From NCBI GenBank assembly GCA_022432975.1, contig CM039512.1, positions 36,453,730 through 36,517,729 on the forward strand: a stretch of DNA of 64,000 nucleotides, written 5' to 3'. The DNA comes from Begonia masoniana (lineage: Eukaryota; Streptophyta; Magnoliopsida; Cucurbitales; Begoniaceae). The notes beneath the pieces were generated by a model that saw only the letters and a list, made by a program, of their open reading frames with translations, was not told the DNA's origin and ran no database searches. A program made the translations under genes and the position numbers. Shown piece by piece: positions 917 through 56,423 of the stretch (positions are counted from its first letter, which is position 1; every line of letters starts with the position of its first letter).

Positions 917-1707
917 ATACTTTGATAAAAATAGTAAACAGGGTTCGAATTGCGAACGGACAGTTTTAATGGAACCCTGGTAGTAAGTTGAAGTTATTGG
1001 CGAAGTAAGGAAATTTGGAGAAATCAAATCATTAGCTAATTAACGAAACGAATGACGAAACAAATAGAAAAAAAAGGAAGGGCAAAAAGGTAATTTGCCA
1101 AGTCAAATTTTAATTAAAAACAAGTTTTTGTCTTCCTCCTCCCGAACACTTATTCTTCTCTGCGTTTTTCCCTCTCCCGTGGCGATTTCTCATTCTCCTT
1201 CACGGCGACTTCCATTCCGACGCCGATTTCTCTTATGTTCGCCTTCCGTTCTTCGCGATTTCCTCTCCTCTTGCAACCCTAGGTATGACTCTATGCTTTT
1301 GGAGTGTTATAGTTTGATTTTCATGAAGTTATACGGTTAGGGTTCCGTTTAGGGTTTTGCAAAAAACGTGGTCTAAAGTTAGGAATCGGTAGGACTATCG
1401 TATTTGTGAGTATATTGAACGTATTAAGCGTTATTGGACGAAATCTAGTGAGTATATGGTGTTTAGGTTTAAAACTGGATATTTGGAGCTTGAGAATCTC
1501 CATCAACGGAGTTTAGAAATTTACGAGCGCGAGTTGCTTGGTAAAATGCCTTGTTGAGCTAAGTTAGAATTTTAGGAAAATTTCCTTAGTTAAGGTTTCG
1601 TTAAATTTGGACATTTAAAGGTTTAATCTCGTTTTAACAACAACTGTTGTGTTTTGCCCCACACGAACGACGCTCGTAGACAGAGCTCGAAGTTCAGTGC
1701 GCGCAAG

Positions 1708-2280
1708 GTAAGTTCTCGTGACTTACTTGGTCGAGTGGCCTACACCGTACCTCGATGTCGCGTTGAGGGATATTGGAGTTTATTTATTTATATGCTTTGG
1801 TCGGGTAGATAGGGTTAATTCCTTATAGGTTATGTTTTTTTTTTTTATAATCTTGATGGTATGTATGATGCTTGTTTACTTTATGTCTTTAATTGTTCAT
1901 GCATCACGTATTTTAAAATAGCATGCAAAAGGATTTATGCACGTTTTATGAAAATGAAATGGACTAATGCAAAGAAAATACGTAATCTGTTATCTGTTAT
2001 CTGGTCATGGGAGGTGGGGCTCAGGCATGGCTGTTACGGATTAGTAAGCATGTACCCCCCCCCCCCCCCCCCCTCTCTAAGTGGAAAGTGTTGTCCAACC
2101 GCTGGAAAAGCACTCTCCATTTAGGGGGATGAGACCTTAGTGGCATCTCTGTTATCTGTTATCGAAACGATCTGTAATGTTAAGTAATCTGCATGATTTC
2201 TGAACTTCATACGCACAGCATACATCTGCATTTACGAAACTTACTGAGCCTTTAGCTCATAGTGTGTCTGTATGGTGTAG
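1708..2280 (+). other. Candidate structured LTR intron of A
   Basis: A perfect donor AAG|GTAAGT (GT at 1708) is followed 573 bp later by TATGGTGTAG|GTGA. Donor hairpin: GTAAGT pairs with ACTTAC across a 7-nt loop. Central hairpin 2077-2124: CTAAGTGGA pairs with TCCATTTAG, then an A.C mismatch and four more pairs, with loop TTGTCCAACCGCTGG. Pre-acceptor hairpin 2245-2259: TGAGC/GCTCA. Splice-site pairing: CCTACACC 1739-1746 with GGTGTAGG 2274-2281. Splicing itself is inferred. Confidence 0.55.
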
Positions 2281-3314: not shown

Positions 3315-3732
3315 TGTGACAGCCCAGGACCCGATCAGGGTCGAGGAGTCGTCACTCCGAACATTTTTAAAACATGGACTATTTTTTTTTTTTGAACTTT
3401 TAAAACTTTACACGGAGAGGAAACCCTCTATGGAATGAAGGCTGGAAAGACATGATTAAATCCGGACTTCAGAAATAAATGGAAGAAGAAAAACAGGAAG
3501 TATAAATGGGCGACTGGAGTAAATAAACAGAACAAAACAGAAAAAACATGAACACAAAAATCTGGACGAGTGCAGGAAGACAGAGAAATGAAAGCAGGAA
3601 AAATAGAATACTTTGAATGTTTTAGAAAACAAGACAGAATAGATGACAGACATGTAGTGGAAGAATTAATAAAAATGAGAAATATAAACTGGAAGATATA
3701 CTATGGAAGGCTACAGTGGATGGCAGAAGTTG

Positions 3733-3960
3733 TGGACGATCAGGAGATGTAGACAATCGAAAACTGTTGACAATTGGGAACTGTGGACAAACAGAAGCCG
3801 TGGACGTTTAAAATCAAAGCGGCTGTGGGCGTTTAAAAATACAAAGCAGAATCTGGACGTTTAAAATACAAAGCAGAATCAGTGGATACAGGAGTCCGTA
3901 GACGTTTACCCTAAAAGACAAAAACAGTAGACAGAATTGACGTTGAAAATAGAAGGCAGA
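3733..3960 (-). repeat. Short dispersed repeats GTGGACGTTTAAAAT in B LTR (with 5938-6250 and 15178-15790)
   Basis: Variants of TGGACGTTTAAAATACAAAG and TGGACGATAACTTTGGACG recur many times here, at 5938-6250, and in the other B LTR at 15178-15790. Some copies form inverted repeats, for example TGGACGA and TCGTCCA around a 5-bp centre near 6113 and 6212. The array lies in both LTRs, so it predates insertion of B. Confidence 0.75.
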
Positions 3961-4602
3961 ATGGACATTTGACACTTAGCCAAATACTTCAAACAATTAC
4001 TCGTCGGGCGAGTTATAACACCCGGAATATTTTCCTGTAGCTTATGTAGCCCTAGTTAGAGTTGTTGTGGGAGTTTAATGTTACTCAAGGCAACATTTTG
4101 GGAGTTTATTTATGCAAGAGTTATGCAAATTGTAGAGTGACATTTATAAAGAAAATTGTGAGAAACCTTATATTGGAGTGTTAGGAAAGTATGTGAATTT
4201 TAAATTGTAACAAAAGTAAAGTTGGAGTAAATGAGAGGCTCTCACGTTGGAATGTTTGATGAAAAGGAGAAGAATGTTGACAAGTCAAAAGTATAGGTTG
4301 AAAATTCAAAGTCAAAAAGGAGACCAATAGAATAAAAGGAAAAATTAAGTGAATTAAACAAGGGAAAATTGAGGTTAAAAAGGAGACATCCACGTTGCTT
4401 TAAGGAATGAAGAAAGTGGAGTGGTTAATTTATAAATTTCAAAAGTTTTGTGGAAATTGTCAAAAGTGAAAAGTTAAGTTAGGTTAAATTATAAAATACC
4501 CTTCTTCCTCCCCATTGCTTCACGAAATTTGCAGCAACATTTGGAGAGTTTCCCCAATTGTGTGGATGAAGTATAAGATATGCGACAGTGTGATATGCAA
4601 AT

Positions 4603-4815
4603 GTGTCTCGAGTAGAACTCGAGAGGTACGCTGATGTGTCTCGAGTAGAACTTGAGAGGTACGCTGATGTGTCTCGACTAGAAGGATTTCTACTTGAGAG
4701 GTACGCTGATGTGTCTTGAGTAGAACTCGAGAGGTACGCTGATGTGTCTCGAGTAGAACTCGAGAGGTACACTGATGAGTCTCAAGTAGAATGATATTCT
4801 ACGAGAGTGGTACGC
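4603..4815 (+). repeat. 33-bp tandem repeat with CTCGAG palindromes in K
   Basis: Units read GTGTCTCGAGTAGAACTCGA plus GAGGTACGCTGAT. Five clear copies start at 4603, 4636, 4669, 4711 and 4744, with a diverged one after them. The copy at 4669 is 9 bp longer. Each unit carries CTCGAG, TAGAA, CTCGAG, a small hairpin. The long open frame across it is only a product of the repeat. Confidence 0.85.
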
Positions 4816-5539
4816 CTACGATTAATGAAGTGAGAACGTGATACATACAACTGAGCGTTAGAAACTGCATGTGATAGGATCTGTTTCATTTTGTTTAGTC
4901 GCATTTGTTATTCCCTACTTGCTAAGCGTAAGCTTACGTGTGTGTGTGTGTGTGTTCTGTGGTGTAGGTAACGACGCGATTACAGGTGAGCTAAGTGAGT
5001 GAGCCAGGACTTGGGAGCAGTAGGAGATGCACGGGGTGTGCCGGTGCGGGCAGTTGTCGGGGCGTCTCGACTATAGTCTTCGGGATGTGTGTGGGATTTA
5101 AATTTTGATAGTTTAGTTTAGATTTCGGGTTGTGGGGCTTAAGTATTTTGGGATTTGGTATAGGTCTCTAACTATTTTGTATATTTGGGGTTTTGGTGTT
5201 TTTATTGGTTGAATTTCGTATTGTGGCTAGCGATGGCTTTGTTGGATGATTGGTATGGAATGATAGTGTTTTAAGGCTTTGATTTCAGGTTTTGGGTTTT
5301 GGAAATTTTAGGAGTTATGCCGCTCGTTTTAGTTTTAAAGCAAATAACGTCGGGTTCACTTTTCTCTATTTTTTTTTATCCATTTTAAGTTGGTTTTCTA
5401 AGATTTTTACGGGACATAGAGTCGAGGGTGTCGGGATTCTGTGGTTAAATTTTCACGTGATTTAAGGGTGTTTGGCTAGATGAAAAATGAAGAAAAGTGG
5501 AGAACAGTCGAAAAAGGGGGCATTTTGGCCGAACGAGCC

Positions 5540-5703
5540 CGAGAAGGCCCGATCAATCGGGCTGGGCGCGATCGGTCGGGCTGGGTGCGCTGCTGCCCGC
5601 GCGGCGCGCTGCTGTGCGCGCGCGCGGTGCGCAGCGGCCCAGTGCGCTTGCACGCTGCCTGGGCACGCTGCGCCCAGCACTCCCGCGCGGCGCGCCCAGC
5701 ACA
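5540..5703 (+). repeat. GC-rich inverted-repeat cluster in K
   Basis: Words such as GCCCGATCAATCGGGC and CGATCGGTCGGGC are followed by a run rich in GCGC and GTGCGC up to the next AT-rich stretch. It lies 230-390 bp before the LTR end, the same place as the hairpin clusters of A, D, E and L, but uses different words. Confidence 0.6.
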
Positions 5704-7750
5704 CTAACTTTAATTTTTTTTAAATTTTTCCTATTTTCAAAATGTTTTGACCCGACCTTTTCTGACATATTTTAAACGTATTTTGGGCACATTTGTCAAC
5801 AAAAATTGAGGGTTATAAAAACCCAAAAACTGAGTCGAATAATTTACGAAAATTATTTTAAACGCCGTTTTAAAAAACGTTTTGAGTTAGCAATGTAGCG
5901 CACCGAGCCGGGGCGGGTTCGGGGGCGTTACACGAGTACTGTGGACAACTGAACTTTGGACGACGTTATCGTGGACGATAACTTTGGACGTTTAAAATAA
6001 CAGGCAAACTTTCAGATGATAACACTCAGCCGAATAAAAGACAGAAACTAAAGGCAAAATAGACAACAGAAACTGGAGGAAGTATGGACGACTGAGACAA
6101 AAGGCAAAATGGACGACGTTATCGTCCACAACTTTAGATGATAACTTTGGACGATTAATACTTAGCCAAATACTTGAAAACTCGAAAGACAGAAACTGTA
6201 AGGCAGAATGGACGACATTATCGTCCACAACTTTGGACGATAACTTTGGACTGTTTTACAGAAGGAAAACTTGAGGATTTGAAAACATAACATTTTCTCC
6301 GCCGATCGATCGGCTATCTCTCTGTTTGACAACTTACATCTTTTGACACAAAAGCATCAAAACTCAAGACAATTCCCAGAATACTTCAGAAACTTTCAAC
6401 TGTTATAACAGAGGTTTTAAAAGACCATTACAACCCAGAATCTATGCATTGTTTTTAAATCTCAGAATCTGTACAGAACTTGACATACATTTCCAGAATT
6501 CACCAAAACAGAAGTTTTTAAAACATAAACAAAACACAGAACTTAAAACTTCACTCTCTTAGTCAGGAATATGTCTGGCTACCACAACAATTCCCAAAAT
6601 CTCGAGCCACCAACAACCTATGCGTCGGACTGAGGCACAAAATTCTCATTCACGGGTTCCGTGCCTGCATCAGGGAGTTCACCTATGAGTCTAAAACTCA
6701 ATAAGAACATAAAAAATGCAGTGATGGAAATGCTATGTATGAACTTTCAGAATACAGTGACAGTACATTATATTACGTTTCACTGGCACAAGGGTATAAG
6801 TGGGGCTTATAGGGGAACTGGAGAGTGCACTATCAGGCATATATAGTAATACAGAACATAACAGAAATAGAGGGCTAGTCCCCGTCCCACACTTAACTGA
6901 TACATTACGTTCAGATTTTTATCTTTCTTAACTTCAAAACGTGTGCAGAAAAGATTTTGCATGAGTTTTCGAGAAAAATGTGTATGCATGGACGTTTACA
7001 GTACTTCAACTTAAAATAGCAAGACAACAGGAATAAAACAGCAGAACATAAAGAGATACGCAGATAACTCATAACTCAACTCTAACTTTTCTACCCAAAA
7101 CCACCCGACAGAAGTAAAACCTAGTATCTCTGTGATATAGGGCCTTTAGTGCCAATCTACACACATGAACTTACCTGTTGATTGAAATGCAGCAAGTCTT
7201 GAATGTCACGGTGAGTCTCAAACCTATATTATGAATAATCGGGCTGTTAACCCTAAACTTTCTTAAAACTAAAAAGTAACTAACCTAAACTTGTTAACTA
7301 ACGAAAAACAATTACCTGTAACAGAGAAAATGGAAGAAAACAGGAGGAGGAGAAGTTTGAAAATGGATGCAGTCGCCTAGAAGAGAGAAAATAGAGAAGA
7401 AGGGATGGAAATGTGAATGCTTTCACGATGAAGAGAAAAAGAAAAGTTTGTCTTCTTCCACAAGATTGCCAAGTGTCAATCACCCATTGACTTTCTTCCA
7501 CCAACCTTAATTAGCTTCCAATTTTACCCTTCCATTGGTTTTTAACCAAATTGTTTTGTTTTGGTTGCACTTAGTTTGGTTTTCCAATTGAATTGTTATT
7601 TAAATTCTTCGATTCGTTTTTCTCCAAAAAATCTACTTTTTTCGTAAGGTATCACAAAACTCCAATAAGAATACGCATTTTATTAATGGCCAATAAATCT
7701 CATTCAATAGTTTAAGGAATAATTACATGGCTAAAATGCCGGGTGTTACA

Positions 7751-12540: not shown

Positions 12541-13125
12541 CTACACCATAGAGACACCTATGAGATAAAAATTCAGTAAGCTCTACGCAAATGCTAATGC
12601 ATGATCATGTATGTTCAGTGCAATGAAAACCGTCCATGTCAATGCATATCTCTGTACGTGTCAGTCTATAGTTATCGGAAACGCTCGACAGATGGATAGG
12701 GCACGTCCAGCGGTTAGACAGCCCACACCATCTGAAGGGAGGAAAACCCGCTCACCACGGAATGCCAGGTCTGAACCTCATCCCCGATAACCCCATGTCA
12801 TGGTTGTTTACTGTGATACTTTACTTGTCTTTACATGCATGTTCTTTTCATGAAATCCGTGCGTAAATTCATTTTCATGACATGTTTAAAACCATGATGC
12901 ATGAACAGTTCAATATAAACATAAAGTAAACAATCACATGTGTACCATCAAGACGATAAACAAACACATATGTACCATCAAGACGATAAACAAACAACAT
13001 ATAAAAACAACTAATCCTAACTACCCAAACCAAAACGATTTAAACAAACAAATCCTCAAGGTTCCTCGAGACGACTTCGACATATGGTGTAGGCCTATCG
13101 GCCAGAGTAAGTCACGAGAACTTAC
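12541..13125 (-). other. Candidate structured LTR intron of L
   Basis: On the minus strand the donor GGTAAGTTCTCGTGACTTAC begins the segment and GGTGTAG|GTGA ends it. Splice-site pairing: plus-strand GGTGTAGG 13086-13093 with CCTACACC 12540-12547. Central hairpin 12689-12734 has CAGATGG/CCATCTG outer pairs and a loop with CTAACCGC. The pre-acceptor hairpin at 12561-12575 has lost one base. Confidence 0.55.
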
Positions 13126-13946
13126 CTCTCGTCGTTGCACACCGAGCTCCGTCCACGAGCATTTGTTCACCTATGCATTCACAATATACGACGTTAAACC
13201 GAGTCTAAATCTTCAAACTTCAAAAATTACTAACTCCTAACTAAAGAAAATTCCATAAAACTCTAAAATACCTTGTTGAGGCATTTCATCGAGCAATTCG
13301 TGCTCGTGATTACCAAACTTCCATTAATGGAGGTTTTCAAGCTCCAACTTAACCAAGTCTCCAATACACCTCAACAAATCAATGAACTAAGCTCCAATAA
13401 CTATCAATAAGTCTATTAGAGGCACAACTAAACTCAACCTATCAATTTCAAACATCGATTTACGTTTTCAACAAAAACCCTAACGAACCCTATTCGTTTT
13501 AAATCCTAGAAATCGATATCTAACGTTCCAAAAGCTTAGAGCCTTACCTAGAGAGCGAAGACGGAAGAGAAACGTGAAGACTCGAGTCGCCGGAGGAAAA
13601 GCTTCGACCACGGAGAAGAGAGTCGCCGGAAGAGGAAGGGGGTTGAGAGAAAAATGAAATTGGCGTGGGTGAGGGGAAAAGAAATGAGGGAGTTTTGATT
13701 TTAATAGAAATTGGATTGTGCAATTACCAACTTGCCCTCCATTAATTCTCTATTTGTTTATCCACTAATTTCGTTATTTAATTAACGATCCATTTACCTC
13801 AAATTTTCACATTTCACCCAAAATTCCAATTTATTATTACGGCCTTGTTAAAATCTTATGTTCGTAAACCAGACCTAATTTGACGTATTTACAAAATACC
13901 GTCTATATTGGAATAAAAATTAAATCTCGTAAAGCCGGGTGTTACA

Positions 13947-14606: not shown

Positions 14607-14751
14607 TTATAAGAAAATCCTATAAACAGAATAACCAAATTTAATAAACAGAACTTTGACGGGAATTTAAACACTTACAGTTTGTGGAGCGATCGCTTAT
14701 GGCGGGTTGCGCAACAAGACATTTCTCCAAAACTGCTTTTAAAACCTGGCA

Positions 14752-19284: not shown

Positions 19285-19330
<46 letters not shown>

Positions 19331-24053: not shown

Positions 24054-24633
24054 CTACACCATACAGACACATATGAGATATGGAAATCTCAGTAAGCTAC
24101 GTAAATGCAGATGCATGCGTGTCGTGCATATGAAGTTCAGAAAACATGCTCATCAGACATATCAGATCATTTCATACATATTGCCACCGAGATATCAGCC
24201 CTCTAAATGGAAAGGATACATCCCGCGGTCGGACTACCACTTTCGATCTAGAGGAGGGGGGTACATGCTCATAAACGCTACAGCCATGCCTGAGCCCCAT
24301 CTCGCGTAACCAGATGATGTGGTATTCAGACCCAGAAATAGTCCACCAATAGATCAAAGTCCCCCCGTACGGGCCACATAGATTTTTCTTTGAAAACATC
24401 GTGTAGAATTCGTTTTCATGTCATTTGAAATACGTGATGCATGAACAGATAATGAACAGAAAGTAAACAATCAACATATATACCATCAAGACCGAAATAG
24501 AATAACCTATAAACCATTTAAACCTAACTACCCAACCGAAAGCGATTTAAAGCAAACAAGTCCTCAGAAATCCTCGATACGACGTCGAAGTATGGTGTAG
24601 ACCGATTGGTCAGAGTAAGTCACGAAGACTTAC
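24054..24633 (-). other. Candidate structured LTR intron in C LTR 2
   Basis: Minus strand: GGTAAGT donor at 24633 and ATGGTGTAG|GTGA acceptor at 24054. The donor sits in GTAAGTcttcgtgACTTAC. Splice-site pairing is CTACACCAT (24054-24062) with ATGGTGTAG (24592-24600), 9 bp. Central hairpin 24201-24253: CTCTAGAT/ATTTAGAG (one G.T), a C.C mismatch, then GAAAG/CTTTC. Pre-acceptor hairpin 24074-24091 pairs TGAGAT with ATCTCA. Confidence 0.55.
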
Positions 24634-29290: not shown

Positions 29291-29434
29291 TTTATATAAA
29301 TCCTATAAAAATCAAAACAATAATCCTAAGAAACAAAATCAAATAAAGCTATAAATAGACTTACAGTTGATGAAGGATGTCCGCGTAGTGGCTGTGCAGT
29401 CGAGCAGTCTACAGAACCGATTTTAAAACCCGGG

Positions 29435-29447: not shown

Positions 29448-29452
29448 TAACT

Positions 29453-31923
29453 TGTAACGACCCAGACACTGTACCCTATTTCCCGTACGAAATTCTTCTT
29501 TTTCTTTTTATACTTAGCGTTTAAGTGGAAAACGATTTAATAAAACGTTTAAAAAATTTCAAAACTATTATTTAAACTAACACGCGCACAAACACCTACA
29601 AAATACACCTCACCATTTCACTAACGCAATTCTATCTATACCACGAATTATAACTACATCACAAACATACACTTCCCAATACGACTTAACTTTAAACCAC
29701 CGATACTCCTACATCTCCGAAATCTCACTCAGAACGACTCGAGATATAATTAAACAAAACACATTTTCACGGAAAACAAACTGCATGGTTCCGTTTAAAG
29801 TTAACATGTCCTCCTGTTTACAAAATACCCAAGCAGTTCATAAAATCCAAATAAAACCTTAACAAACGTTTTATAAAACAAATCTATCAACTAAACAGAA
29901 CCAAACACCCTAATATGATCAACTATACATTTTATAATACCATTAACATAAATCTATCACCTAACCAGATCCAAGCATCCTAATATGATCAACTATACAT
30001 TTTATAATACCATTAACTCCTCCAAAATACTTACATACATCCCAAAATACCAACTCCTCCAAACACTCACATACATCCCAAATACCTTTACATCATTCCC
30101 CACGGGTCAAAACGCGCCTCGACTGCTCAGCGCACTCCCACGGCCATCATCCATCAGCTGCTCCTACGTCAGGAGGAGAATATCATCCTCACCTGGGTCA
30201 ACGTAACCTAGAACGTCACCTACACCATACAGACACATATGAGATATGGAATCTCAGTAAGCTACGTAAATGCAGATGCATGCGTGTCGTGCATATGAAG
30301 TTCAGAAAACATGCTCATCAGACATATCAGATCATTTCATACATATTGCCACCGAGATATCAGCCCTCTAAATGGAAAGGATACATCCCGCGGTCGGACA
30401 ACCACTTTCGATCTAGAGGAGGGGGGTACATGCTCATAAACCCTACAGCCATGCCTGAGCCCCATCTCGCGTAACCAGATGATGTGGTATTGGTCAGACC
30501 CGGAAATAGTCCACCAATAGATCAAAGTCCCCCCGTACGGGCCACATAGATTTTTCTTTGAAAACATCGTGTAGAATTCGTTTTCATGTCATTTGAAATA
30601 CGTGATGCATGAACAGATAATGAACAGAAAGTAAACAATCAACATATATACCATCAAGACCGAAATAGAATAACCTATAAACCATTTAAACCTAACTACC
30701 CAACCGAAAGCGATTTAAAGCAAACAAGTCCTCAGAAATCCTCGATACGACGTCGAAGTATGGTGTAGACCGATTGGTCAGAGTAAGTCACGAAGACTTA
30801 CCTGTCGTCCGTAGCTTGCTGGTTTTGGCACATCCGGTCACATATGGCTCGACCTATGTCAAACATTCAAACTTCATTAAATTCAAGCCTACATTCTCCA
30901 ATTACTCTCAAATTACTCTTTCTAGTCTAATCCAATTAAAACCTAACTTAACGGGCCACTAATTCGGGTTGGGTAAAACCGACCCGAAACTTTGAACGCG
31001 CGTAACTTTCGCGTTGGTTACCGGAATCGAACGATTCCAGCGGCCACGTACTCCTCTAATAACCTATTTTAATATGCCAAAAGGAATTTAAAAACAAACG
31101 ACCGGAGCTAGGTCAATTTATCAAAAACCCGAACTGCCCCTTTCTCCCAAAATTCCTCTTTTTGATTTTTCATCAAATTCCATCAATTTCTTCACTAATC
31201 TATCCTTTTAACATCCAATTAACAACAACTAACCTAAAATCGAAGTTACAAAGCACAAACCCACGCCGGAAGTGACCGAAAACGGCCGGCGATCGGAGCT
31301 CAATCGAGCTCGCCACCGCCAGCCCCAAACCGAACAAAAACAGGGCCGAAGTCGAGCTTACCGTTCGGGTTGCGCGCGGAGATGGCCGGAGGTCGCACGC
31401 CGCCGTCGTCTGGCCGGAGAGGGGCGGAAGTCACCGACGTTCGTCGTTCGTCGGAGGGTCGCGCTCCCTTCTCTCTCTCGGCGTCGGGCTCGGGTTCGTC
31501 GAAATCAACTGAATGGTTTAACCATTCAGTTGATTTTAATTATTAATAATAATAATAATAATAATAATAATCCTAATATTCTATTTTATTGAACGTCACT
31601 ACCTCTCGTGTTTTCAACCGTTTCGAATTTCTTATCTCGCCAGTAAATCCAACTTATTATCTGGGTTCTATTAAAACTGTCCGTTCGCAAATCGGACCTC
31701 GTTTACTATTTTTACTAAAATTATATTACGAGAAACGTAATTACCCGGAATATAGCGTTATTATTCCGAAAATTCTCGTAAATTCTTTAAAATTTCTATT
31801 AATTGCTAGGATCGTCATGACACATTTCTTTTGTAAAATGAACTTGATTTGACATATTTACAAAAATGCCATCCGAAAATATAATAATAATATTCTCAAA
31901 ATCCGTACGAGCCGGATATTACA
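29453..31923 (-). mobile_element. Element C LTR 3 (outer, 5' side)
   Basis: 2471 bp. It matches LTR 2 except for a deletion of about 90 bp after 31260 and a shorter AAT run. It ends CGGATATTACA at 31923 and is followed by the TSD CACAT. It carries the full intron-like domain. Confidence 0.9.
30230..30801 (-). other. Candidate structured LTR intron in C LTR 3
   Basis: Same layout as in LTR 2: donor at 30801, acceptor at 30230, splice-site pairing 30230-30238 with 30770-30778, central hairpin 30366-30418, pre-acceptor hairpin 30240-30256. Confidence 0.55.
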
Positions 31924-32837
31924 CACATACAGTAATACATAACATAACAGAAATAGAGGGCTAGTCCCAGTCCCACACTTAACCGATACATTACATTCAG
32001 ATTTTTATCTTTCTTAACTTCAAAATGTGTGCAGAAAACATTATGCATGTGTTTTCGGGAAAAATGTGTATGCATGGACGTTTACAGTACTTCAACTTAA
32101 AACAGCAAGACAACAGGAATAAAACAGCAGAACATAAAGAGATACGCAGATAACTCATAACTCAACTCTAACTTTTCTACCCAAAACCACCCGACAAAAG
32201 TAAAACCTAGTATCTCCGTGATATAGGGCCTTTAGTGCCAATCTATACACATGAACTTACCTGTTGATTGAAATGCAGCAAGTCTTGAATGTCACGGTGA
32301 GTCTCAAACCTATATTATGAATAATCGGGCTGTTAACCCTAAACTTTCTTAAAACTAAAAAGTAACTAACCTAAACTTGTTAACTAACGAAAAATAATTA
32401 CGTGTAACAGAGAAAATGGAAGAAAACAGGAGGAGGAGAAGTTTGAAAATAGATGCAGTCACCTGGAAGAGAGAAAACAGAGAAGAATGGAAGGAAATGT
32501 GAATGCTTTCACGATGAAGAGAAAAAGAAAAGCTTGTCTTCTTCCACAAGATTGCCAAGTGTCAATCACTCATTAGCTTTCTTCCACCAAACCTTAATTA
32601 GCTTCCAATTTTATCCCTTCCATTGGTTTATAACCAAATTGTTTTGTTTTGGTTGCACTTAGTTTGGTTTTCCATTTGAATTGTTATTTAAATTCTTCGA
32701 TTCGTTTTTCTCTAAAAATCCACTTTTTCTGTAAGGTATCACAAAACTCCAATAAGAATACGCATTTTATTAATGGCCAATAAATCTCATTCAATAGTTT
32801 AAGGAATAATTACATGGCTAAAATCTCGGGTGTTACA
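31924..32837 (-). mobile_element. Element B 5' LTR, second part
   Basis: It continues the B LTR after element C (the first five bases are the duplicated CACAT) and ends GGGTGTTACA, matching 6840-7750 of the other LTR. The B TSD TTTGT follows. The donor-like GGTAAGT on the minus strand is kept near 32263. Confidence 0.88.
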
Positions 32838-32948: not shown

Positions 32949-33497
32949 GTAAGTCTTCGTGACTTGTTTGGCCGATCCGGCCTACACCTTGGATGAGCTT
33001 TGTTAATCGAGGATAGTTGGAGAAATTCTTGTTTAGTGTAGGTTGGAAGGGTAGTTAGGATAATTGTATGTTAGAACATTTTTTTATTAGGTTCTATGTA
33101 TCGTTTGTGCTTTTCCTTACGTTTATGCTCAAATTCATGTTCATGCATCATGTTTTATGAACTGGCATGAAAAATGAATTTCTGCATATATTTTCATGAA
33201 AAGAAACGCCTAATGAAAAGATATGAAATGCATGTAATCCCGGTCACGTCGGGGTGGAGTTCAGACATGGCTGTCCTAAGAGGAGGAGCATGTTTTCCCC
33301 CTGCAGATGGAAAGGGCTATCTAACCGCGAGATGTGCTCTCTCTATCTGCTGAGTCAACCCCCGGTGACACCTCCCGCTATGTAACTAAATAATGAAAAA
33401 GAAATGCATGTTTTTACAAACCTCGCATGCATAGCACACATTTACATTTACGTAGATTTACTGAGCCTTTAGCTCATAGGTTATTTCTATGGTGTAG
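32949..33497 (+). other. Candidate structured LTR intron of D (5' LTR)
   Basis: Donor GAG|GTAAGT at 32949, acceptor TATGGTGTAG|GTGA at 33497, 549 bp. Splice-site pairing CCTACACC 32981-32988 with GGTGTAGG 33491-33498. Central hairpin 33303-33350: GCAGATGGA/TCTATCTGC, A.C mismatch, then four pairs; the loop holds CTAACCGCG. Pre-acceptor hairpin 33462-33476: TGAGC/GCTCA beside TTACTGAG, a fair branch-site sequence. Confidence 0.6.
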
Positions 33498-34600: not shown

Positions 34601-34749
34601 CTCGGGTTTTAAAATCGATTCTATAGACTGCTCGACTGTACAGCCACAACACAGACATCCTTCCTCAACTGTAAGTACGTTTAAATGCTTTATTTGATTT
34701 CGATTTTCTTAGGATTATATGTTTTGACTTTTATAGGAGTTATAAAACA

Positions 34750-38263: not shown

Positions 38264-40741
38264 TGTGACGACCCTAATACTGTACCCAATTTTTCCAGTA
38301 CCATTTTTTTTGTATACTTATCATTATAAACTTTAGACCTAACCTTAACAGTTATTAAATTGAAATCAGAGTTCGTTTAGTAATTCGTTTAAAACAAATA
38401 CTAAAACAATTAAAACAAATATGTAAAACAAATTAAAAACATTTAAAAACAATTAAGCATCGGCCGAGGGACAAAAAGGGATTTTCATCCCAATATACAG
38501 GGGCGATCAATCCCCCGTAGGCGATTGCAACAGGCGATTGCTCGCTTGTTGCCAAAACGCCAGTGGCGATCGATCAATCGCCACAGTTTGTGGCGATTGA
38601 TCGCCACACTCCCTGGAATTCCAGGGAATGGCGATCCAAGAGGGGCAATTGATCCCCTCTTTAGGCGATCAATCGCCACCCTTTCTGCCTCCCTCTCACT
38701 TTCGTTCCATTTCCTTCCTTTTCTTTCTTTCTTTTTCTCCTGCGCCAACTACACAAATACAACTTATACATACACCCTAACCAACACAATAACATCAAAT
38801 ATAAACTCACTCATATCCTCATCCTTTTCACATTCACCGAATCACCCTAAATAACGACTCAAAAACGTATTTAAAATACGATCAATTTTCCTGAAAACGA
38901 ACTGCGTGGATATGTTTGAAAACCGTACAAAATCCCCTATGAAAATTTAAAACAACCAAGCAGTTCCAGAATTTCAAAATAAAAGTCGTCATTTAAGCAT
39001 CCTATACATATTCTATCTATTTTGTCCCAAAACACTTACATACGGTCCCCACGGGTCAGGTAAGCATCGACTGCGCAACACACCACCGCAAGCCATCCTC
39101 CGTCAACTGCATCACTCCTCAGGTGGAGGGATCTCGTCCTCACCTATGTCGAAATCACCTACACAATACAGACACCTATGAGATAAAAATCTCAGCAAGT
39201 TCTAGTAAATGTACATGCATGCTATGCATATGGGTTCAGAAATCATGCAGCATTTTCTTTATCTTTACTCTGTGGGTGTCACCGAGATCTCAGCCTCCTA
39301 ACCGGAGAGAGCACATCCAGGGGTCAGACTACTCTTTCCAGCTAGAAGAGGGGGATACACACTTACAACGAGTACAGCTGTGCTTGAGCCCCATCTCGCA
39401 TGACCTATAACTGTATAACTGTATGAGTATGCAATAAATGTGGTATTGTGACAAACCCGTAATCAGTCTCCACAATAGGTCGTGCCCCTCTCCAGGCCAC
39501 ATCGCCGTTTTCTTTAAAACATCATGTGGAAATTCATTTTCTATGTTCTTTTAAAACACGTGATGCGTGAACAGTTCAATATGACAGAAAATAAACATAC
39601 ATACGGAGCATACCATTAAAACACAACATCAACCTATAAAACGATCGAACCCTAACTACTCAACCAAAGCGATTAAATAAACACGTCACCAAAACTCCTC
39701 GAGACGACCTCGACGTACGGTGTAGGCCAATCGGCCAGAGAAGATCACGAGAACTTACCTCACGCCCGCTGCAATCCAAGCTCTGTCCACGAGCGTTGTT
39801 TACCTAAGAAATTTCACAATATCATTGTTAAAACGAGTTTAAACCGTTGAATATCCAAATTTAACGAAACCTTGACTAAGGACATTACTTAAAGCTCTAA
39901 TTTGATTTAATAGCGCATTTTAGCGAACATTACACATTCTATATTCCAAAACCTCAATTAACAAGCATTTTCCACAAACTCGAAAATCCTAAAACTTTAA
40001 CATTCTCACAAATCAATCTAACTTCGTCCAAAAACGTTCAATACGTCCTTTATATCATCAATCACAATAAACCTATTAATTTCGGACCCTAAATCACATT
40101 TTCAACGGAAACCCTAAACGAACCCTAACCGTCAAACTCCGTGAAAATCAAAATAAACTTCACCAAAACCTTAGAATCGTACCTAGGGTCGGGATTGAGG
40201 AAGAAAACGCGAAGAATCGAGGACGAACGGAGGACAAATCGCCGTTGGAGAGGAGGAACGTCGTGAGGGAGAAGTCGCCTGGAGAGGGAGGTTAGCAGGG
40301 AAGGAGTGAAAATCGTGAAGGATAAGAAGGATTTTGTTTTATTTATAATATTGACTTGTCAAATGACCGTTTTGCCCCTTTCTTTGATTTTTTATTTGTT
40401 TCGTCTTTCGTTTCGTTAATTGATCATCGATTCGGTTTCTCCAAATCTCCATATTTCTCCAGTAAACCCAACTTATTACTAGGGTTCTTTTAAAACTATC
40501 CGTTCGCAAATCGAACCACGTTTACTATTTTTACTAAAACGTACTTTATATTACGATAAACGTAATTTCTCAAAATATAGCGTTATTACTCCGAAAAATC
40601 CCGTAAATTCTTTAAAATTCCTATTAATCGTTATGATCGAAATGACGCTTTCTTTTCGTAAAACGGGTTTGATTTGACATATTCACAAAAAAATGCCAAT
40701 ATATATTATAATATAAAATCTCGTACAAGCCGGATATTACA
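38264..40741 (-). mobile_element. Element E 3' LTR
   Basis: 2478 bp, TGTGACGACCC to CGGATATTACA on the plus strand. It holds a hairpin cluster 38503-38690 (including CCCTGGAATTCCAGGG at 38611-38626 and TGGCGATTGATCGCCA at 38591-38606), the intron-like domain 39159-39758, and a TATAAAG on the minus strand at 40544-40550. Confidence 0.92.
39159..39758 (-). other. Candidate structured LTR intron of E (3' LTR)
   Basis: Donor GGTAAGT at 39758, acceptor GTGTAG|GTGA at 39159, 600 bp. Central hairpin 39298-39345: CTAGCTGGA/TCCGGTTAG, A.C mismatch, then four pairs. Pre-acceptor hairpin 39179-39194: TGAGAT/ATCTCA. The splice-site pairing is 7 bp here because one base changed (CCTACACA); the 5' LTR keeps all 8. 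Confidence 0.55.
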
Positions 40742-45262: not shown

Positions 45263-45410
45263 AATTATATACTCCTATATCAAAGTTAAAACACATAATC
45301 TAAGAAACTAGAAATCAATTAAAGCTATAAACATACTTACAATTGATGAAGAATGTCCGCGTAGTGGCTGTGCAGTCGAGCAGTCTACAGAACCGATTTT
45401 AAAACCCAGG

Positions 45411-45427: not shown

Positions 45428-47895
45428 TGTGACGACCCTAATACTGTACCCAATTTTTTCCGTACCATTTTTTTTTTTATACTTATCATTATAAACTTTA
45501 GACCTAACCTTAAGCGGTTATTAAATCGAAATCAGAGTTCGTTTAGTAATTCGTTTAAAACAAATACTAAAACAATTAAAACAAATATGTAAAACAAATT
45601 AAAAACATTTAAAAACAATTAAGCATCGACTGAGGGACAAAAAGGGATTTTTATCCAAATATACAAGGGCGATCAATCGCCCGTAGGCGATTGTAACAGG
45701 CGATTGTTCGCCTGTTGCCAAAACGCCAGTGGCGATCAAGTTTGTGGCGATTGTTCGCCACACGCCCTGGAATTCCAGGGAGTGGCGATCCAAGAGGGGC
45801 GATTGATCCCCTCCTCAGGCGATCAATTGCCACCCTCTCTTCCTCCCTCTCACTTTCGTTCCATTTCCTTCCTTTTCTTTCTTTCTTTTTCTCCTGCGCC
45901 AACTACACAAATACAACTTATACATACACCCTAACCAACACAATAACATCAAATATAAACTCACTCATATCCTCATCCTTTTCACATTCACCGAATCACC
46001 CTAAATAACGACTCAAAATGTATTTAAAATACGATCAATTTTCCTGAAAACGAATTGCGTGGATATGTTTGAAAATCGTACAAAATCCCCTATGAAAATT
46101 TAAAACAACCAAGCAGTTCCAGAATTTCAAAATAAAAGTCGTCAATTAAGCATCGTATACATATTCTATCCATTTTGTCCCAAAACACTTACATATGGTC
46201 CCCACGGGTCAGGTAAGCATCGACTGCGCAACACACCACCGCAAGCCATCCTCCGTCAACTGCATCACTCCTCAGGTGGAGGGATCTCGTCCTCACCTAT
46301 GTCAAAATCACCTACACCATACAGACACCTATGAGATAAAAATCTCAGCAAGTTCTAGTAAATGTACATGCATGCTATGCATATGGGTTCAGAAATCATG
46401 TAGCATTTTCTTTATCTTTACTCTGTGGGTGTCACCGAGATCTCAGCCTCCTAACCGGAGAGAGCACATCCAGCAGTCGGACTACTCTTTCCAGCTAGAA
46501 GAGGGGGATACACACTTACAACGAGTACAGCCGTGCCTGAGCCCCATCTCGCATGACCTATAACTGTATAACTGTATGAGTATGCAATAGATGTGGTATT
46601 GTGACAAACCCGTAATCAGTCTCCACAGTAGGTCGTTCCCCTCTCCAGACCACATCGCTGTTTTCTTTAAAACATCATGCGGAAATTCATTTTCTATGTT
46701 CTTTTAAAACACGTGATGCGTGAACAGTTCAATATGACAGAAAGTAAACATACATACGGAGCATACCATCAAAACACAACATCAACCAATAAAACGATCG
46801 AACCCTAACTACCCAACCAAAGCGATTAAATAAACACGTCACCAAAACTCCTCGAGACGGCCTTGACGTACGGTGTAGGCCAATCGGCCAGAGAAGATCA
46901 CGAGAACTTACCTCGTGCACGCTGCAATCCAAGCTCCGTCCACGAGCGTTGTTTACCTAAGAAATTTCACAATATCATTGTTAAAACGAGCTTAAACCGT
47001 TAAATGTCCAAATTTAACGAAACCTTGACTAAGGACATTCCTTAAAGCTCTAATTTGATTTAATAGCGCATTTTAGCGAAAATTACTCATTCTATATTCC
47101 AAAACCTCAATTAACGAGCATTTTCCATAAACTCGAAAATCCTAAAACTTTAACATTCTCACAAATAACTCTAACTTCGTCCAAAAACGTTCAATACGTC
47201 CTTTATATCATCAATCACAATAAACCTATTAATTTCGGACAAATCACATTTTCAACAGAAACCCTAAACGAACCCTAACCGTCAAACTCCGTGAAAATCG
47301 AAATAAACTTCACCAAAACCTTAGAATCGAATCGTACCTAGGGTCGGGATTGAGGAAGAAAACGTGAAGAATCGAGGACGAACGGAGGACAAATCGTCGT
47401 TGGAGAGGAGGAACGCCATGAGGGAGAAGTTACCTGGAGAAGGAGGTTCGTAGGGAGGGAGTGAAAATCGTGAAGGAGAAGAAGGAATTTTTTTTTATAT
47501 AATATTGACTTGTCAAATGACCGTTTTGCCCCTTTCTTTGATTTTCTATTTGTTTCGTCTTTCGTTTCGTTAATTGACCGTCGATTCGGTTTCTCCAAAT
47601 CTACATATTTCTCTAGTAAACCCAACTTATTACTAGGGTTCTTTTAAAACTGTCTGTTCGCAAATCGGACCGCGTTTACTATTTTTACTAAAACGTCCTT
47701 TATATTACGAGAAACGTAATTTCTCAAAATATAGCGTTATTACTCCGAAAAATCCCGTAAATTCCTTAAAATTCCTATTAATCGTTATGATCGAAATGAC
47801 GCTTTCTTTTCGTAAAACGGGTTTGATTTAACATATTCACAAAAAAATGCCAATATATATTATGATATAAATTCTCGTACAAGCTGGATATTACA
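45428..47895 (-). mobile_element. Element E 5' LTR
   Basis: 2468 bp, near-identical to the 3' LTR. The hairpin cluster lies at 45665-45835 (palindrome CCCTGGAATTCCAGGG near 45766). It has lost a short stretch of GATCAATCGCC words relative to the 3' LTR near 45740. A minus-strand TATAAAG lies at 47698-47704. Confidence 0.92.
46312..46911 (-). other. Candidate structured LTR intron of E (5' LTR)
   Basis: Donor at 46911, acceptor at 46312. The splice-site pairing is full length: CCTACACC 46311-46318 with GGTGTAGG 46872-46879. Central hairpin 46451-46498, pre-acceptor hairpin 46332-46347. In the gene order of E this copy would lie in the leader of the genomic RNA. Confidence 0.55.
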
Positions 47896-50482: not shown

Positions 50483-51037
50483 CTACACCATAATGACACC
50501 TATGAGATAAAAATCTCAGTAAACTCTACGTAAATGTCTATGCATGACATGTATGCTATGAAAACCGTCCATATCATTTCATTTATCAGTACGTGTCAGT
50601 CTATGGTTATCGGAAACGCTCGACAGATGGATAGGCACATCAAGCGGTTAGACAGCCCACACCATCTGAAGGGAGAAAAACCTGCTCACCATGGAACGCC
50701 GAGTCTGAACCTCATCCCCGATAACCCCATGCCATGGTTGTTTACTGTGATAATTTACTTGCCTTTACATGTATTTCCTTTTTCATGAAACCGATGCACA
50801 AATTCATTTTATTGACATTTTAAAACGTGATGCATGAGCAATTCAATGTACAGTAAAACATACCTAATTGAGTATACCATCAAAACCTCTCAATACATCA
50901 AAATATCATAACACGCATCCTGTAAAACAATCAAACCTAATCTAACCAACCGAAGCAAAGCAATTAAACAAGCAAGCTCCAACAAAACTCGACATATGGT
51001 GTAGGCCAATTGGCCACGGTAAGTCACGAGAACTTAC
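50483..51037 (-). other. Candidate structured LTR intron of G
   Basis: Donor GGTAAGTTCTCGTGACTTAC at 51037, acceptor TATGGTGTAG|GTGA at 50483, 555 bp. The splice-site pairing is 11 bp: CCTACACCATA 50482-50492 with TATGGTGTAGG 50995-51005. Central hairpin 50624-50668, pre-acceptor hairpin 50503-50518. Confidence 0.58.
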
Positions 51038-51900
51038 CTCTCGTCCCGTGCACACCGAGCTCCTTGGTTCGAGCCTTGTCACCAAAAGCAAACCATAGCG
51101 TTCTTTTGTCAAAATTGAGCTTAAACATAAAATTTCAGAAATTTACGAAACTCCTAACTGAAGGAAATTTCCTAAAACTCTAATAAATCTCTCTCGGGCA
51201 TTTCATCGAGCAACTTACGCTCACAAATTCTCAAACTCCATTAATGGAGGTTTTTCAAAGCTCCATATTCGATTTTTCCAAACAAACGCTCAAATCATTC
51301 ATTATTTTGCCCAATAAACGTTAACAAAGTAATTTCTAACGTTTTCTAACAAAACCCGACTTTTTCCAACAAAATATAACAAAACCCTAAATGTTAAACA
51401 TCCTAGAAATTGAGAACTAACGCCGGGAAACACTAGAAACTCACGTAGAATCGCGAGGGGATGAGAAAACATGAAGAACCTCGATGAACGGATAAAGAAT
51501 CATTGATGTGGAGGAGGAATCGCCGTTGAGGAGAAGGGAGTCACCGTGAAGAGGGAGAGGAGAGAAATAACGTGAAGTGTTAGAGAAAGTTAGGGTTTTT
51601 GGCATTTAATCTACTTTGGCTTGGCAAATTACGAGTTTGCCCTTTGGTTCAATCTCCCGTTTATCCTATTGTTCGGCTATCGGTTTGGTTTCTCTAAAAC
51701 TTCTTATTTCACCAATAATTCCAATTTCTTCCTAGGGCTCTAATAAAACCTTTCGTTCGTCAAACAAATTTATTTTGCTATTTCTACGAATTAAATCTTC
51801 ATAGGGTCAAAACTGAAAACTTAAGCATTATATCTCGGTTTGAATTCCTTAAATTCCCATTGCGCGCACAATTCAAAAACCTGTAAAATCGGGTGTTACA

Positions 51901-52606: not shown

Positions 52607-53591
52607 GCTTTAGATTTCGGTTTCTAGGGTTTAAACAATTAGGGTTCGTTAAGGGTTTTGTTAAAAACGTGAAATAAAGTTTGAAATCGATAGGGTTACC
52701 GTGATTATGGCTCAAATGGACGTATTTATGGTCGTTGGTAAGAGTTAGTTGAATTAATAAGGGTTGTTGAGGTTTTAGATTGTTGAAAGTTTGGAGAACT
52801 CCATTAATGGAGGTTTAGAAATTCACGAGCACGAATTGTTTGATAAAATGCTTCAACGAGTTAAATTAGAGTTTTAATAAATTTCCTCTAGCTAGGAGTT
52901 TTGCAGTTTTCAAAACTCAATATTTTAGACTTGATTTTAATGACGAATGTTGTGAATTGTCATAGATGAATAACGTTCGTGGATGGAGTTTAAATTGCAA
53001 CGGACGCTAGGTAAGTCTTCGTGACTTGTTTGGCCGATCCGACCTACACCATGGATGAGCTTTATTGATCGAGGATAATTGGAGAAATTCTTTTTTAGTG
53101 TAGGTTTGAAGGGTAGTTAGGATAATTGTATGTTAGAATGTTTTTTTATTAGGTTCTATGTATCGTTTGTGTTTTTCCTTACGTTTATGCTCAAATTCAT
53201 GTTCATGCATCATGTTTTATGAACCGGCACGAAAAATAAATTTCCGCATATGTTTTCATGAAAAGAAACCCCTAATGAAAATATATGAAATGCATGTAAT
53301 CTCGGTCACGTCGGGGTGGGGTTCAGACATGGCTGTCCTGAGAGGAGGAGCATGTTTTCCCCCTGCAAATGGAAAGTGCTATCTAACCACGAGATGTGCC
53401 CTCTCTATCTGGTGAGTCAACCCCCGGTGACACCTCCAGCTATGTAACTAAATAATGAAAAAGAAATGCATGTTTTTACAAACCTCGCATGCATAGCACG
53501 CATTTACATTTACGTAGATTTACTGAGCCTTTAACTCATAGGTTATTTCTATGGTGTAGGTGACTGTGATACAAGTGAGGACGACATTCCT
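52607..53591 (+). mobile_element. Element D 3' LTR, second part
   Basis: It continues after Cassandra (the first five bases are GCTTT) to the H insertion at 53592. It contains the intron-like domain 53011-53559. It overlaps in content with the 5' LTR from 32843. Confidence 0.88.
53011..53559 (+). other. Candidate structured LTR intron of D (3' LTR)
   Basis: Donor CTAG|GTAAGT at 53011, acceptor ATGGTGTAG|GTGA at 53559. The splice-site pairing is 10 bp (CCTACACCAT with ATGGTGTAGG). The central hairpin 53365-53412 and pre-acceptor hairpin 53524-53538 each carry a decayed pair relative to the 5' LTR copy. Confidence 0.55.
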
Positions 53592-55046: not shown

Positions 55047-55845
55047 CTACATCATAAGGTTTAAACTATAAGCCTAATGCTTAGTAAGGAATGCAACACT
55101 AACATGGATGCATGAATGTATAGTTTGGGAAAATCACATGCTCATAAGTCTTTTTCTTGTTCATATCTTTGCTTGAAATCATCATTCATAGTCATAGATC
55201 ATATTCATCATTCATAGTCATTGATCATATTCATCATTCATAGTCTTTGATCATATTCATCATTCATAGTCTTTGATCATATTCATCATTCATAGTCTTT
55301 GATCATATTCATCATTCATAGTCTTTGATCATATTCATCATTCATAGTCTTTGATCATATTCATCATTCATATAAGTTGTGTGGATTAAGAGAGGATTTG
55401 TGCCGGTAAAGGGGGTTCGACAGTGAGTTTGATCTTTTTCCCTACTGCGGGTCGTATTTATATGTCCTTCTTTGGACTGTGACATACGTCGAACCGCCCC
55501 CAACCCTCACTTCATCCACGTTGCATAAATCTTATATATATACATATATACATACATATCTTGTTCATGGAAAACATGCATTAAAACATTTTCTTATGCT
55601 TGAGAAACATTCATGATGCATGAACATGAGAACTTTTAACCCATCAGACTATGACAAGGATCTTATCAGAGCAGACAACTTCACATTCACTAGCAGGTCA
55701 TCAAATAGCATAACTCACATTATTCATCAATCCTTCAAGTGCAGACAAGCTCATCATCATAAGGTAAACATCAGACATCTAAAACAACCTGGTACTCCCA
55801 CGATGTAGGGCTCTATTAGCCGGAAATCTTAATACATTCACTTAC
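55047..55845 (-). other. Candidate structured LTR intron of H (compensatory changes)
   Basis: Donor AGGTAAGT at 55845, acceptor TGATGTAG|GTGA at 55047, 799 bp, the longest of the set. Splice-site pairing: GATGTAGG 55802-55809 with CCTACATC 55046-55053, so both partners changed together from the CCTACACC/GGTGTAGG of other families. Pre-acceptor hairpin 55069-55083 is TAAGC/GCTTA. A different middle inverted repeat (GGGTTCGAC with GTCGAACC, 55425-55500) replaces the usual hairpin. Confidence 0.5.
55173..55372 (-). repeat. 26-bp tandem repeat in H
   Basis: About seven units of CATATTCATCATTCATAGTC plus TTTGAT, the first ones with CATAGAT or CATTGAT in place of CTTTGAT. It lies within the intron-like domain of H and explains much of its extra length. 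Confidence 0.92.
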
Positions 55846-56423
55846 CTGGTCTCCTTAGCACTTTGAGCTCCTTTCTCTTCAAACTTCTCCACCTAAAACA
55901 TTTACATTGCAGTAGTTAAAACAAAATCCTAATAGTTCTAATCTCAAGTCATCCTAAGGTCTGATAGCTAAGAGTCATTCCCACTCTCAGATTTCAAATG
56001 TTCTTATTATTAGTCGGCCATTGGAAAACCCAAAACTCCAATGCCGAGTAGAAAACAGGGCTAACGAACTAACAGATAGCTACGTTGTCTATTGCTTACC
56101 TTGGGCACGGAGTAGTCGAGTAGTGGCAGAGAAAACCGATCGTCGAAGAGGGTATGCTGAAAGCAGAGAGCAAGAGCTTGGGAGAGAAGAAATCGCCGAA
56201 GAGGAAGGTGTCGGCTACAGTGGTTCAAGTGAGGTTTAAAACATTTCCTTTTTCTTTATATAGTGGTCATCTCCCTCCATTATTACAACTTTGCCACTAA
56301 ACCTAGTTTAAATCCACATGAAATTAATTATTCTTGGTATAAAACTCTAAACCGTGAAGATTGAATACTCATGACCGTTAATACAGTTAGGGAGTCACCT
56401 GGTTGAAGTTGTCAGGTGTTACA

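Follow-up and report, generated by a model that had tools for sequence, protein, structure and literature searches.

LTR retrotransposons of plants are generally free of introns, Ogre and EVADE being among the exceptions (a 2025 review, PMC12786077). Among the closest described systems, the barley Ty1/copia element BARE1 resembles the elements in this report, as we interpret them, in that its RNA is partly spliced, its unspliced RNA is copied, and its intron is U-rich and lies between GC-rich flanks (accessible sections of PMC3735527). EVADE/ATCOPIA93 (shGAG) and Ogre likewise have functional introns, a subset of their transcripts being spliced (available portions of PMC12786077 and, for Ogre, also PMC6317226). 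Spliced and unspliced isoforms of the sunflower elements Tyran and Varan appear in direct RNA reads, and no Tekay element was found in the sunflower expressed set (both from the available part of PMC7730604). In the literature on Tekay introns, LTR introns, leader introns and chromovirus splicing, taken from accessible text that was mainly open-access, with subscription journals mostly missing, we found no description of introns inside plant LTRs; to this extent the original prediction, whose author knew of none, agrees with the literature.

The window, by which we mean the whole 64,000-nucleotide stretch of Begonia masoniana DNA analyzed here, carries a domain with splice-site-like ends in the LTRs of several families. 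The domain is probably the second intron of a multi-exon 5' leader within the LTRs, one of three or four leader introns; to treat it as a stand-alone module would overstate its independence, and the families that carry it are mostly of one lineage. Our preferred reading, to which we give a probability of roughly 0.6, is that this intron (intron 2) is a spliceosomal leader intron whose fold restrains its splicing, so that part of the RNA would stay unspliced as the genome and the spliced RNA would be translated.

Domain profiles and LTR comparison show the window to be a nest of Ty3/gypsy elements. RVT_1, RT_RNaseH_2, Integrase_H2C2 and SH3_Tf2-1 all scored above cut-off in the profile search; rve (E = 0.00039) was below its own cut-off, and a match to the Chromo domain at the C-terminus (E = 0.0015, 18.9 bits) was below the gathering score. 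The elements that host the domain are probably chromovirus families of the Ty3/gypsy group belonging to the Tekay clade, the clade name (Tekay/Del) being assigned from motifs. PBS sequences of what we take to be the iMet type lie at 14753, 23264, 29436, 34588 and 45412. Element E, our reference in much of what follows, has two 2.5-kb LTRs (38264-40741 and 45428-47895), and M is an additional family absent from the earlier list.

45428..47895, minus strand: 5' LTR of the E element, TG..CA, with the presumed iMet-type PBS at 45412-45423 and TATATAAA near LTR position 397
31924-32837 plus 14769-16344, minus strand: M, a further family with intron 2; its copy M' is at 3315-7752

The LTRs of A, C, D, E, G and L match one another pairwise at 65-80% over stretches of at least 150 bases, a list in which the H LTR has no match. 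Because these six align mutually, the description of the domain as embedded in otherwise different LTRs is wrong for them. Most of the domain-bearing families are, judged by their LTRs, related members of one lineage.

The nest has several further peculiarities. The C copies (16345-31923, minus strand) form a tandem LTR-internal-LTR-internal-LTR array with a period of ~6.17 kb, possibly the result of LTR-LTR recombination, and a 37-bp tandem array with an open frame of 521 codons (16759-18373) apparently stands in place of part of the first C LTR. Minisatellite-like repeats occur in the H LTR (53986-54614) and, as GAATGATGAATATGATC units, in H intron 2. A PBS at 52217-52241 (minus strand) adjoins a different LTR end and is not followed by the exon and intron that the others share after their PBS; it belongs to another element type. 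The B LTR (4014-5932, plus strand) has CGAGT on either side, possibly the target duplication of a solo LTR.

The predicted copies of intron 2 in the window are as follows.

1708..2280, plus strand: intron 2 of A, donor AG|GTAAGT and acceptor GTGTAG|GTGA
12541..13125, minus strand: intron 2 of L, a solo LTR (splice-site pattern, donor scan)
24054..24633, minus strand: intron 2 of C1 (splice-site pattern)
30220..30801, minus strand: intron 2 of C2 with corrected start, 582 nt (donor scan)
32949..33497, plus strand: intron 2 of D1 (splice-site pattern, donor scan)
53011..53559, plus strand: intron 2 of D2 (splice-site pattern)
39159..39758, minus strand: intron 2 of E1 (splice-site pattern)
46312..46911, minus strand: intron 2 of E2 (splice-site pattern, donor scan)
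50483..51037, minus strand: intron 2 of G (splice-site pattern, donor scan)
55047..55845, minus strand: intron 2 of H, a solo LTR nested in the D2 LTR (splice-site pattern, donor scan, genome copies)
6665..7174, minus strand: intron 2 of M', a mutated copy of the divergent family M (other genome copies, L039-L057)
31924..32260, minus strand: 5' part of M intron 2; the remainder is at 16167-16344, with the C cluster nested between

All ten copies listed originally have AG|GTAAGT and (G/A)TGTAG|GTGA on the element strand, and nine of the ten coordinate pairs given for them were exact, that of C2 being ten bases off (30220-30801, not 30230-30801). In an alignment of 863 columns with a mean column identity of 55%, AGGTAAGT and TGTAGGTGA are invariant in 10/10 rows; the splice-site blocks are not due to chance. 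Donor 2 is the best-scoring sense-strand donor in seven of eight scanned regions (A, L, C2, D1, E2, G and H), by an approximate PWM; the eighth region, M, did not contain donor 2. Acceptor 2 has a weak context for a plant acceptor and scores poorly: of the seven regions that contain it, D1, G and H are the only ones where it ranks among the ten best acceptors. Read by eye, CATAG lies 17-18 nt ahead of acceptor 2 in A, D, E, G and L. B had been said to keep the donor, yet no donor of the pattern with two or fewer mismatches occurs there. Only an acceptor-like site is present in B, CTGTGGTGTAG|GTAAC at 4957-4971, with repeated GAGAGGTACGC units upstream where the donor usually lies.

Conservation of the GT/AG sites in other copies of each family was a check put forward with the original prediction, and the sites are kept. 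G-type genome copies have donor 2 in 19/22 and acceptor 2 in 20/22 (27 loci, 5 unparsed), H-type copies in 20/20 and 17/18, respectively (20 loci, 2 acceptors unparsed), and M-type copies have the GTAAGT of donor 2 in 19/19, the AG in 19/19 and the strict ATGTAG|GT in 16/19 (20 loci, 1 unparsed). Inside intron 2, TTCATGCATCA is conserved, and TGTTCAYGCATCAYG (in E2, 46710-46727, minus strand) is nearly invariant in all ten copies, including H. Its CATGCA core is RY-like, and alifold pairs TGTTCAYGCATCAYG with a conserved GCATGCAT stretch.

Read from the LTR start, the predicted E2 leader begins with a TATA box at about position 397 and a CT-rich start region. Exon 1 ends at CCTAG|GTACG and intron 1 extends to CTTAG|GTAAAC; a 45-nt exon 2, intron 2 and an exon 3 of ~119 nt follow. 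Sites resembling donor 1 are found at the equivalent place in A, L, C, G and H. A third intron, with exon 3 donor AG|GTATTTTGG and an acceptor ~100-270 nt further on, is a candidate only. A stretch of 59-66 nt running GTAAGT...TATAG, located between the PBS and the gag ATG, is common to C, D, E and M, and is very U-rich in E2. No intron of the BARE/EVADE type, at the gag/protease border and ending Gag, was encountered in the leader, the region covered here; the introns that we describe lie upstream of the gag ATG.

46957..47337, minus strand: predicted intron 1 of E2, CCTAG|GTACG ... CTTAG|GTAAAC, missing from 7 related genome copies
55893..56099, minus strand: predicted intron 1 of H, CAAG|GTAAGC ... 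TTTTAG|GTGGAG, missing from 5 genome copies
13171..13547, minus strand: predicted intron 1 of L (site reading, composition)
30854..31361, minus strand: predicted intron 1 of C2 (site reading, composition)
1283..1662, plus strand: predicted intron 1 of A, without acceptor AG in the window copy, its end taken from the 45-nt exon 2 of relatives
51083..51444, minus strand: predicted intron 1 of G, without acceptor AG in the window copy; the AG is present in L003-L006, L008 and L009
46912..46956, minus strand: exon 2 of E2, 45 nt, GC 0.58
46193..46311, minus strand: exon 3 of E2, 119 nt, GC 0.55, first codons coding-like
45275..45340, minus strand: short candidate intron 4 of E, between PBS and gag ATG, GTAAGT..TATAG
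34671..34736, plus strand: candidate intron 4 of D, between PBS and gag ATG, GTAAGT...TATAG
29303..29364, minus strand: candidate intron 4 of C2, GTAAGT...TATAG
14620..14678, minus strand: candidate intron 4 of M, GTAAGT...TATAG

In four E-like genome copies from L010-L017, the surroundings of acceptor 1 vary and the AG is kept (CTTAG, CTCAG, CTCTAG, CCTAG); exon 2 is three bases shorter in two of the four.

Base composition follows these boundaries. For A, L, C2, D1, E2, G and H, the GC content of exons 1-3 is 0.48-0.72 versus 0.31-0.43 for introns 1-2, and it is 0.31-0.33 in the 290-300 nt after exon 3 (exon 1 was counted as the 128-130 nt before donor 1, D1 is without exon 1, and exon 3 of G and H was 110 nt). 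Intron 2 is U-richer and GC-poorer than its flanking exons in seven families, and M' has almost no exon/intron contrast; the accessible text of the BARE paper gives ~15% as a plant yardstick for intron versus exon composition (PMC3735527). AUG triplets are five times rarer in exons 1-2 (7 in 1029 nt, 0.68 per 100) than in introns 1-2 (227 in 6573 nt, 3.45) across seven families, 66 of the 227 coming from the repeat-rich intron 2 of H. With the start site assumed, the E2 leader has 48 AUGs unspliced and 16 when spliced as modeled, and removal of introns 1 and 2 alone drops 27 of the 48.

We looked for copies lacking an intron in the genome of the window (G000, 795 Mb). With an H-type probe of joined exons 1, 2 and 3, five of the 40 best matches cross the exon 1-exon 2 junction without intron 1, at 87-95% identity; the remaining 35 are exon 3 alone. 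In these five copies, the junction is free of any intron 1 remnant, and intron 2 starts at donor 2 in each. The TATATAAAG box lies upstream in L078-L081, and L078, L079 and L081 also show acceptor 2; in L080 another insertion lies within intron 2, and the 2 kb fetched for L098 contain no acceptor 2. L079 and L080, which lie on one strand at a distance of 9.1 kb, share 99.2% identity over 400 nt, as expected of the LTR pair of a single element. Among the 40 best matches to an E-type probe that joined exons 1 and 2, seven are joined copies without intron 1 (81-86% identity) and the other 33 are single-exon matches. Five of the seven have the junction AG|GTRAACA and the other two CG|GTAAACA; donor 2 follows immediately in every case, the fetched stretch covering the donor end of intron 2. 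Two of these copies share a strand at a distance of 7.0 kb, again as expected of an LTR pair. A longer E-type fused probe returned exon 3 alone in its best 40 matches and was uninformative on intron 1, and the shorter probe was used instead.

Exact absence of intron 1 is thus seen in 12 copies from two lineages, among the best 40 matches for each, and donor 2 is kept in 12/12; these are copies and not counted events, the H-type ones outside the L079/L080 pair differing mutually by 13-16% downstream of the junction and by 2-7% upstream. Because A, C, E, G, H, L and M all have intron 1 at that place, we read the absence as loss. Exact removal from GT to AG, seen in two lineages, is the footprint expected of reverse-transcribed spliced RNA. 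The genomic copies without intron 1 point to real splicing of the leader RNA. Splice signals, composition contrast and precise genomic loss of intron 1 accordingly support the earlier proposal of a leader intron; intron 2 itself would be spliced out of part of the transcripts.

Probes for the exon 2-exon 3 junction found joined copies in none of the 40 best matches for E and none of the 40 for H. For diverged copies this absence weighs little, since the best 40 are single-exon matches of 90.6-95.1 bits; in the E-type exon 1-2 probe, joined copies at 84-86% identity score about as high, and those of lower identity could be missed among the best 40. A sharper test, since an unspliced copy cannot match it, was the 24-letter E-type exon 2-exon 3 junction, which with three or fewer mismatches occurs nowhere in the genome. 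Within the window there are no fused exon junctions.

The original prediction held that the domain is selectively kept against a largely different background. This is supported in degree, in a comparison without H. Among A, C1, D2, E2, G and L, mean pairwise identity is 64.9% for intron 2 and 66.1% for exon 3, compared to 56.9% for the 300 nt upstream, 54.5% for the 50 nt leading up to the donor (exon 2) and 53.4% for the sequence downstream (values for exon 3 and downstream are without D2; shuffled baselines are 43.0 and 47.6%). Pairs with H reach 41.8-51.8%, near baseline, the H intron 2 being hardly alignable with the others. Mostly homologous LTRs would be expected if the domains were relics of a single ancestral LTR, with GT/AG ends arising by chance, but we consider such shared descent alone very improbable, because conservation is uneven, P3 and the three-way junction (see below) have compensatory changes, and intron 1 has been lost precisely.

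A YCUAYAYC segment lies ~32 nt into intron 2 (37 nt in H) and is complementary to GRUGUAG|G at the acceptor; we call the resulting helix P3.

46872..46879, minus strand: core of the P3 5' arm in E2, CCTACACC (helix search, covariation)
46311..46318, minus strand: core of the P3 3' arm in E2, GGTGTAG|G, covering the 3' splice site

The strongest end-to-end helix is at the P3 position in 10/10 window copies, with shuffle p values of 0.002 or less in eight of the ten (D1, 0.015; E1, 0.073). Over eight family representatives (A, L, C1, D2, E2, G, H and M), pairs 2-11 are formed in 80/80 cells versus 12-41/80 in slid controls; the rows omitted from this count were C2, D1 (without pair 9), E1 (without pair 8) and M' (without pairs 4, 10 and 11). 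Changes on both sides occur at pairs 7, 11 and 12, e.g., pair 7 goes from C-G to U-A in H and M. Pair 10 is changed on both sides in the window copy of M only and, by eye, is unpaired in 19/19 parsed M genome copies, and the change in the window is therefore private. When the 3' arms were permuted among families, the observed total was reached in 1056/40320 permutations, a weak test because the core hardly varies. Two hand-picked short stems beside P3 also covary: P2 is paired in 30/32 cells (312/40320 permutations) and P4 in 37/40 (672/40320). Mean pairing probabilities of P3 are 0.88-1.0 in L, C1, C2, D2 and E2, 0.43 in H and 0-0.19 in A, D1, E1, G and M', and P3 is not the favored fold in every copy. 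A donor hairpin, P1 (GTAAGT:ACTTAC), was rejected as a general feature; it pairs well in A, C, D, G and L and fails in E, H and M.

The arms of P3 double as an inverted repeat in the DNA, and this, together with the conserved TTCATGCATCA, would also suit a module acting at the DNA level, be it inverted protein-binding motifs, RY-type CATGCA boxes or an old insert with terminal inverted repeats. That one P3 arm is the splice acceptor, that the arms of P3 and of the three-way junction change in step on both sides, and that no flanking target duplication is visible by eye make this reading highly unlikely.

Enclosed by P3 is a three-way junction of 128-149 nt, on which single-sequence and alignment folding concur in most copies. 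Folding and a covariance model place it in nine window copies.

46425..46560, minus strand: three-way junction of E2
39272..39407, minus strand: three-way junction of E1
24177..24313, minus strand: three-way junction of C1
30342..30478, minus strand: three-way junction of C2
2001..2149, plus strand: three-way junction of A
33241..33375, plus strand: three-way junction of D1
53303..53437, plus strand: three-way junction of D2
12666..12794, minus strand: three-way junction of L
50601..50728, minus strand: three-way junction of G

Folding z scores are -1.4 to -3.25 for six sequences. Across the nine, 84.6% of cells are paired versus 78.7% after shuffling and 41-56% in slid versions; 16 pairs are changed on both sides versus 8.9 in shuffles, and 34 cells are so changed versus 13.1, values as high being reached in 0/500 shuffles in both cases, and further pair types do not exceed the shuffles (174/500). 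With 34 genome matches added (42 distinct rows), 112 cells are changed on both sides versus 44.3, in an alignment that was fitted to the covariance model and thus leans to the structure; related rows inflate covariation counts, and the slid controls preserve that relatedness. The covariance model does not find the junction in H, M or B, so that P3 is the more widely shared part.

Covariation in P3, in P2 and P4 and in the three-way junction supports the structured RNA that the original prediction had offered as an interpretation. A search of Rfam, which it had also proposed, gave no match at the gathering threshold over the window and none at E of 1 or less for 46200-47000, and the domain accordingly matches no known Rfam family or ribozyme. 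Relatives sought in IMG/VR by acceptor pattern, donor pattern and integrase were absent beyond one chance match, L001, which we rejected because, by eye, the long ORFs of that contig are without retroelement sequence; a pattern search of GTDB genome contigs found none.

A covarying fold closed by P3 could also belong to an intron 2 that is never spliced, i.e., a structured element of the genomic RNA serving as a packaging, dimerisation, export or translation signal, whose GT/AG ends are relics or rarely used. The absence of intron-2-less copies (0/40 for E and for H among the best matches, and no E-type junction), when 12 copies lack intron 1, fits this as well and counts against a spliced intron 2; intron 2 is also more conserved than exon 2 and the flanks, and in several families both splice sites lie within or beside predicted helices. 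Such a fold, however, does not require an invariant AG|GTAAGT and TGTAG|G, nor the exon-like composition on either side. Moreover, donor 2 is still the best donor in H despite a hardly alignable intron, and GTAAGT is kept in 19/19 parsed M copies. We therefore consider an unspliced element doubtful; it differs from splicing under restraint in whether donor 2 and acceptor 2 ever join.

Exon 3 introduces a complication. Its first codons are coding-like in one frame, with the reading G-D-x-x-x-G-E-D-D-I-P-P (E2 46193-46311, minus strand, and homologues), and a pure leader has no need of this. One possibility is that splicing serves a product of these exons, either a small LTR protein read from spliced RNA or a conserved upstream ORF, that would end in G-x-x-x-G-E-D-D-I-P-P-x-x-stop. 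Amino-acid similarity in frame 0 of exon 3 is higher than in column shuffles (75/3000; synonymous measure 205/3000), as it is in exon 2 (120/3000). The stop is at an equal place in six of eight families, with TAG or TAA in 15/19 parsed M genome copies, and an in-frame AUG precedes the frame in E2 and G (exon 1) and in L (exon 2) when read through the predicted junctions. Against this, C, H and M have no in-frame AUG in exon 2 or in the 100 nt before donor 1, the frame opened by the exon 1 AUG of A is closed by a stop at the junction, the exon 3 frame is interrupted by stops within exon 2 of D and M, a word search with the 57-aa E2 reading gave no candidate, and the signals are weak (p ~0.03-0.07). 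A functional protein is thus unlikely; the frame may stem from an upstream ORF that is old and partly decayed or that starts without AUG.

Returning to the leader intron with restrained splicing, the leader would start inside the 5' LTR and end just ahead of gag, in the order exon 1, intron 1, 45-nt exon 2, intron 2, exon 3, perhaps a third intron, the PBS, the short candidate intron 4 and the gag ATG. P3 would slow splicing by tying up the 3' splice site in a helix with sequence close to the 5' splice site. RNA retaining the folded intron 2 would be the genome that is packaged and copied; RNA without it would have a shorter leader and far fewer upstream AUGs and would be translated, and dropping introns 1 and 2 from the E2 leader should help translation of gag. 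Since introns persist in the LTRs, the RNA that is copied must be unspliced there, and we propose that intron 2 survives because the packaged, copied RNA retains it. Most simply, the genomic RNA would need to contain intron 2, either because the fold of the intron is a packaging or export signal or because P3, lying over the acceptor AG, slows removal of the intron. Among the observations that count against the leader model are the weak acceptor 2, the near-absent composition contrast of M', the 16 AUGs still left in the spliced E2 leader as modeled, and the missing acceptor 1 AG in the window copies of A and G.

A more specific version is possible, and we advance it tentatively. The folded leader intron would mark the genomic RNA, with P3 hiding the 3' splice site and the three-way junction acting as the signal for packaging or export. 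Copying would then be confined to unspliced RNA, and splicing would sort RNA for translation from RNA for the genome; the unprotected intron 1 would occasionally be lost via reverse-transcribed, partly spliced RNA.

How one RNA serves as both message and genome is an open question in plant retrotransposons. If our reading is true, a large group of plant elements would have solved this by splicing, through a multi-intron LTR leader in which one intron is sometimes lost and loss of the other, folded one was not seen. Such LTRs could also supply ready-made splice sites and 5' exons to neighboring host genes, and annotation models that assume intron-free elements would overlook part of their biology.

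Deltaretroviruses and foamy viruses have the major splice donor in R, and the lentiviral packaging signal is 3' of the splice donor. The likeness to the present elements, as we interpret them, is a donor in an LTR-derived leader and a genome-specific signal that is spliced out; their acceptor, however, is far downstream, for env or regulatory genes, whereas here donor and acceptor are in one LTR. BARE1 differs in that its single 104-nt intron is near the gag/pol border, outside the LTR, and serves to make Gag only, and a conserved fold is not described for it in the accessible text (PMC3735527). The introns of EVADE/ATCOPIA93 and Ogre are in coding regions (protease), according to the available portions of PMC12786077 and PMC6317226, and the isoforms of Tyran and Varan alter ORFs (available part of PMC7730604). 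For the fold itself, the nearest parallels are Dscam and ATE1, in which distant intronic pairing governs splicing (PMC9198270); these are host genes in which the pairing governs exon choice, and it is not one that covers the acceptor in a transposon leader intron, as we propose for P3.
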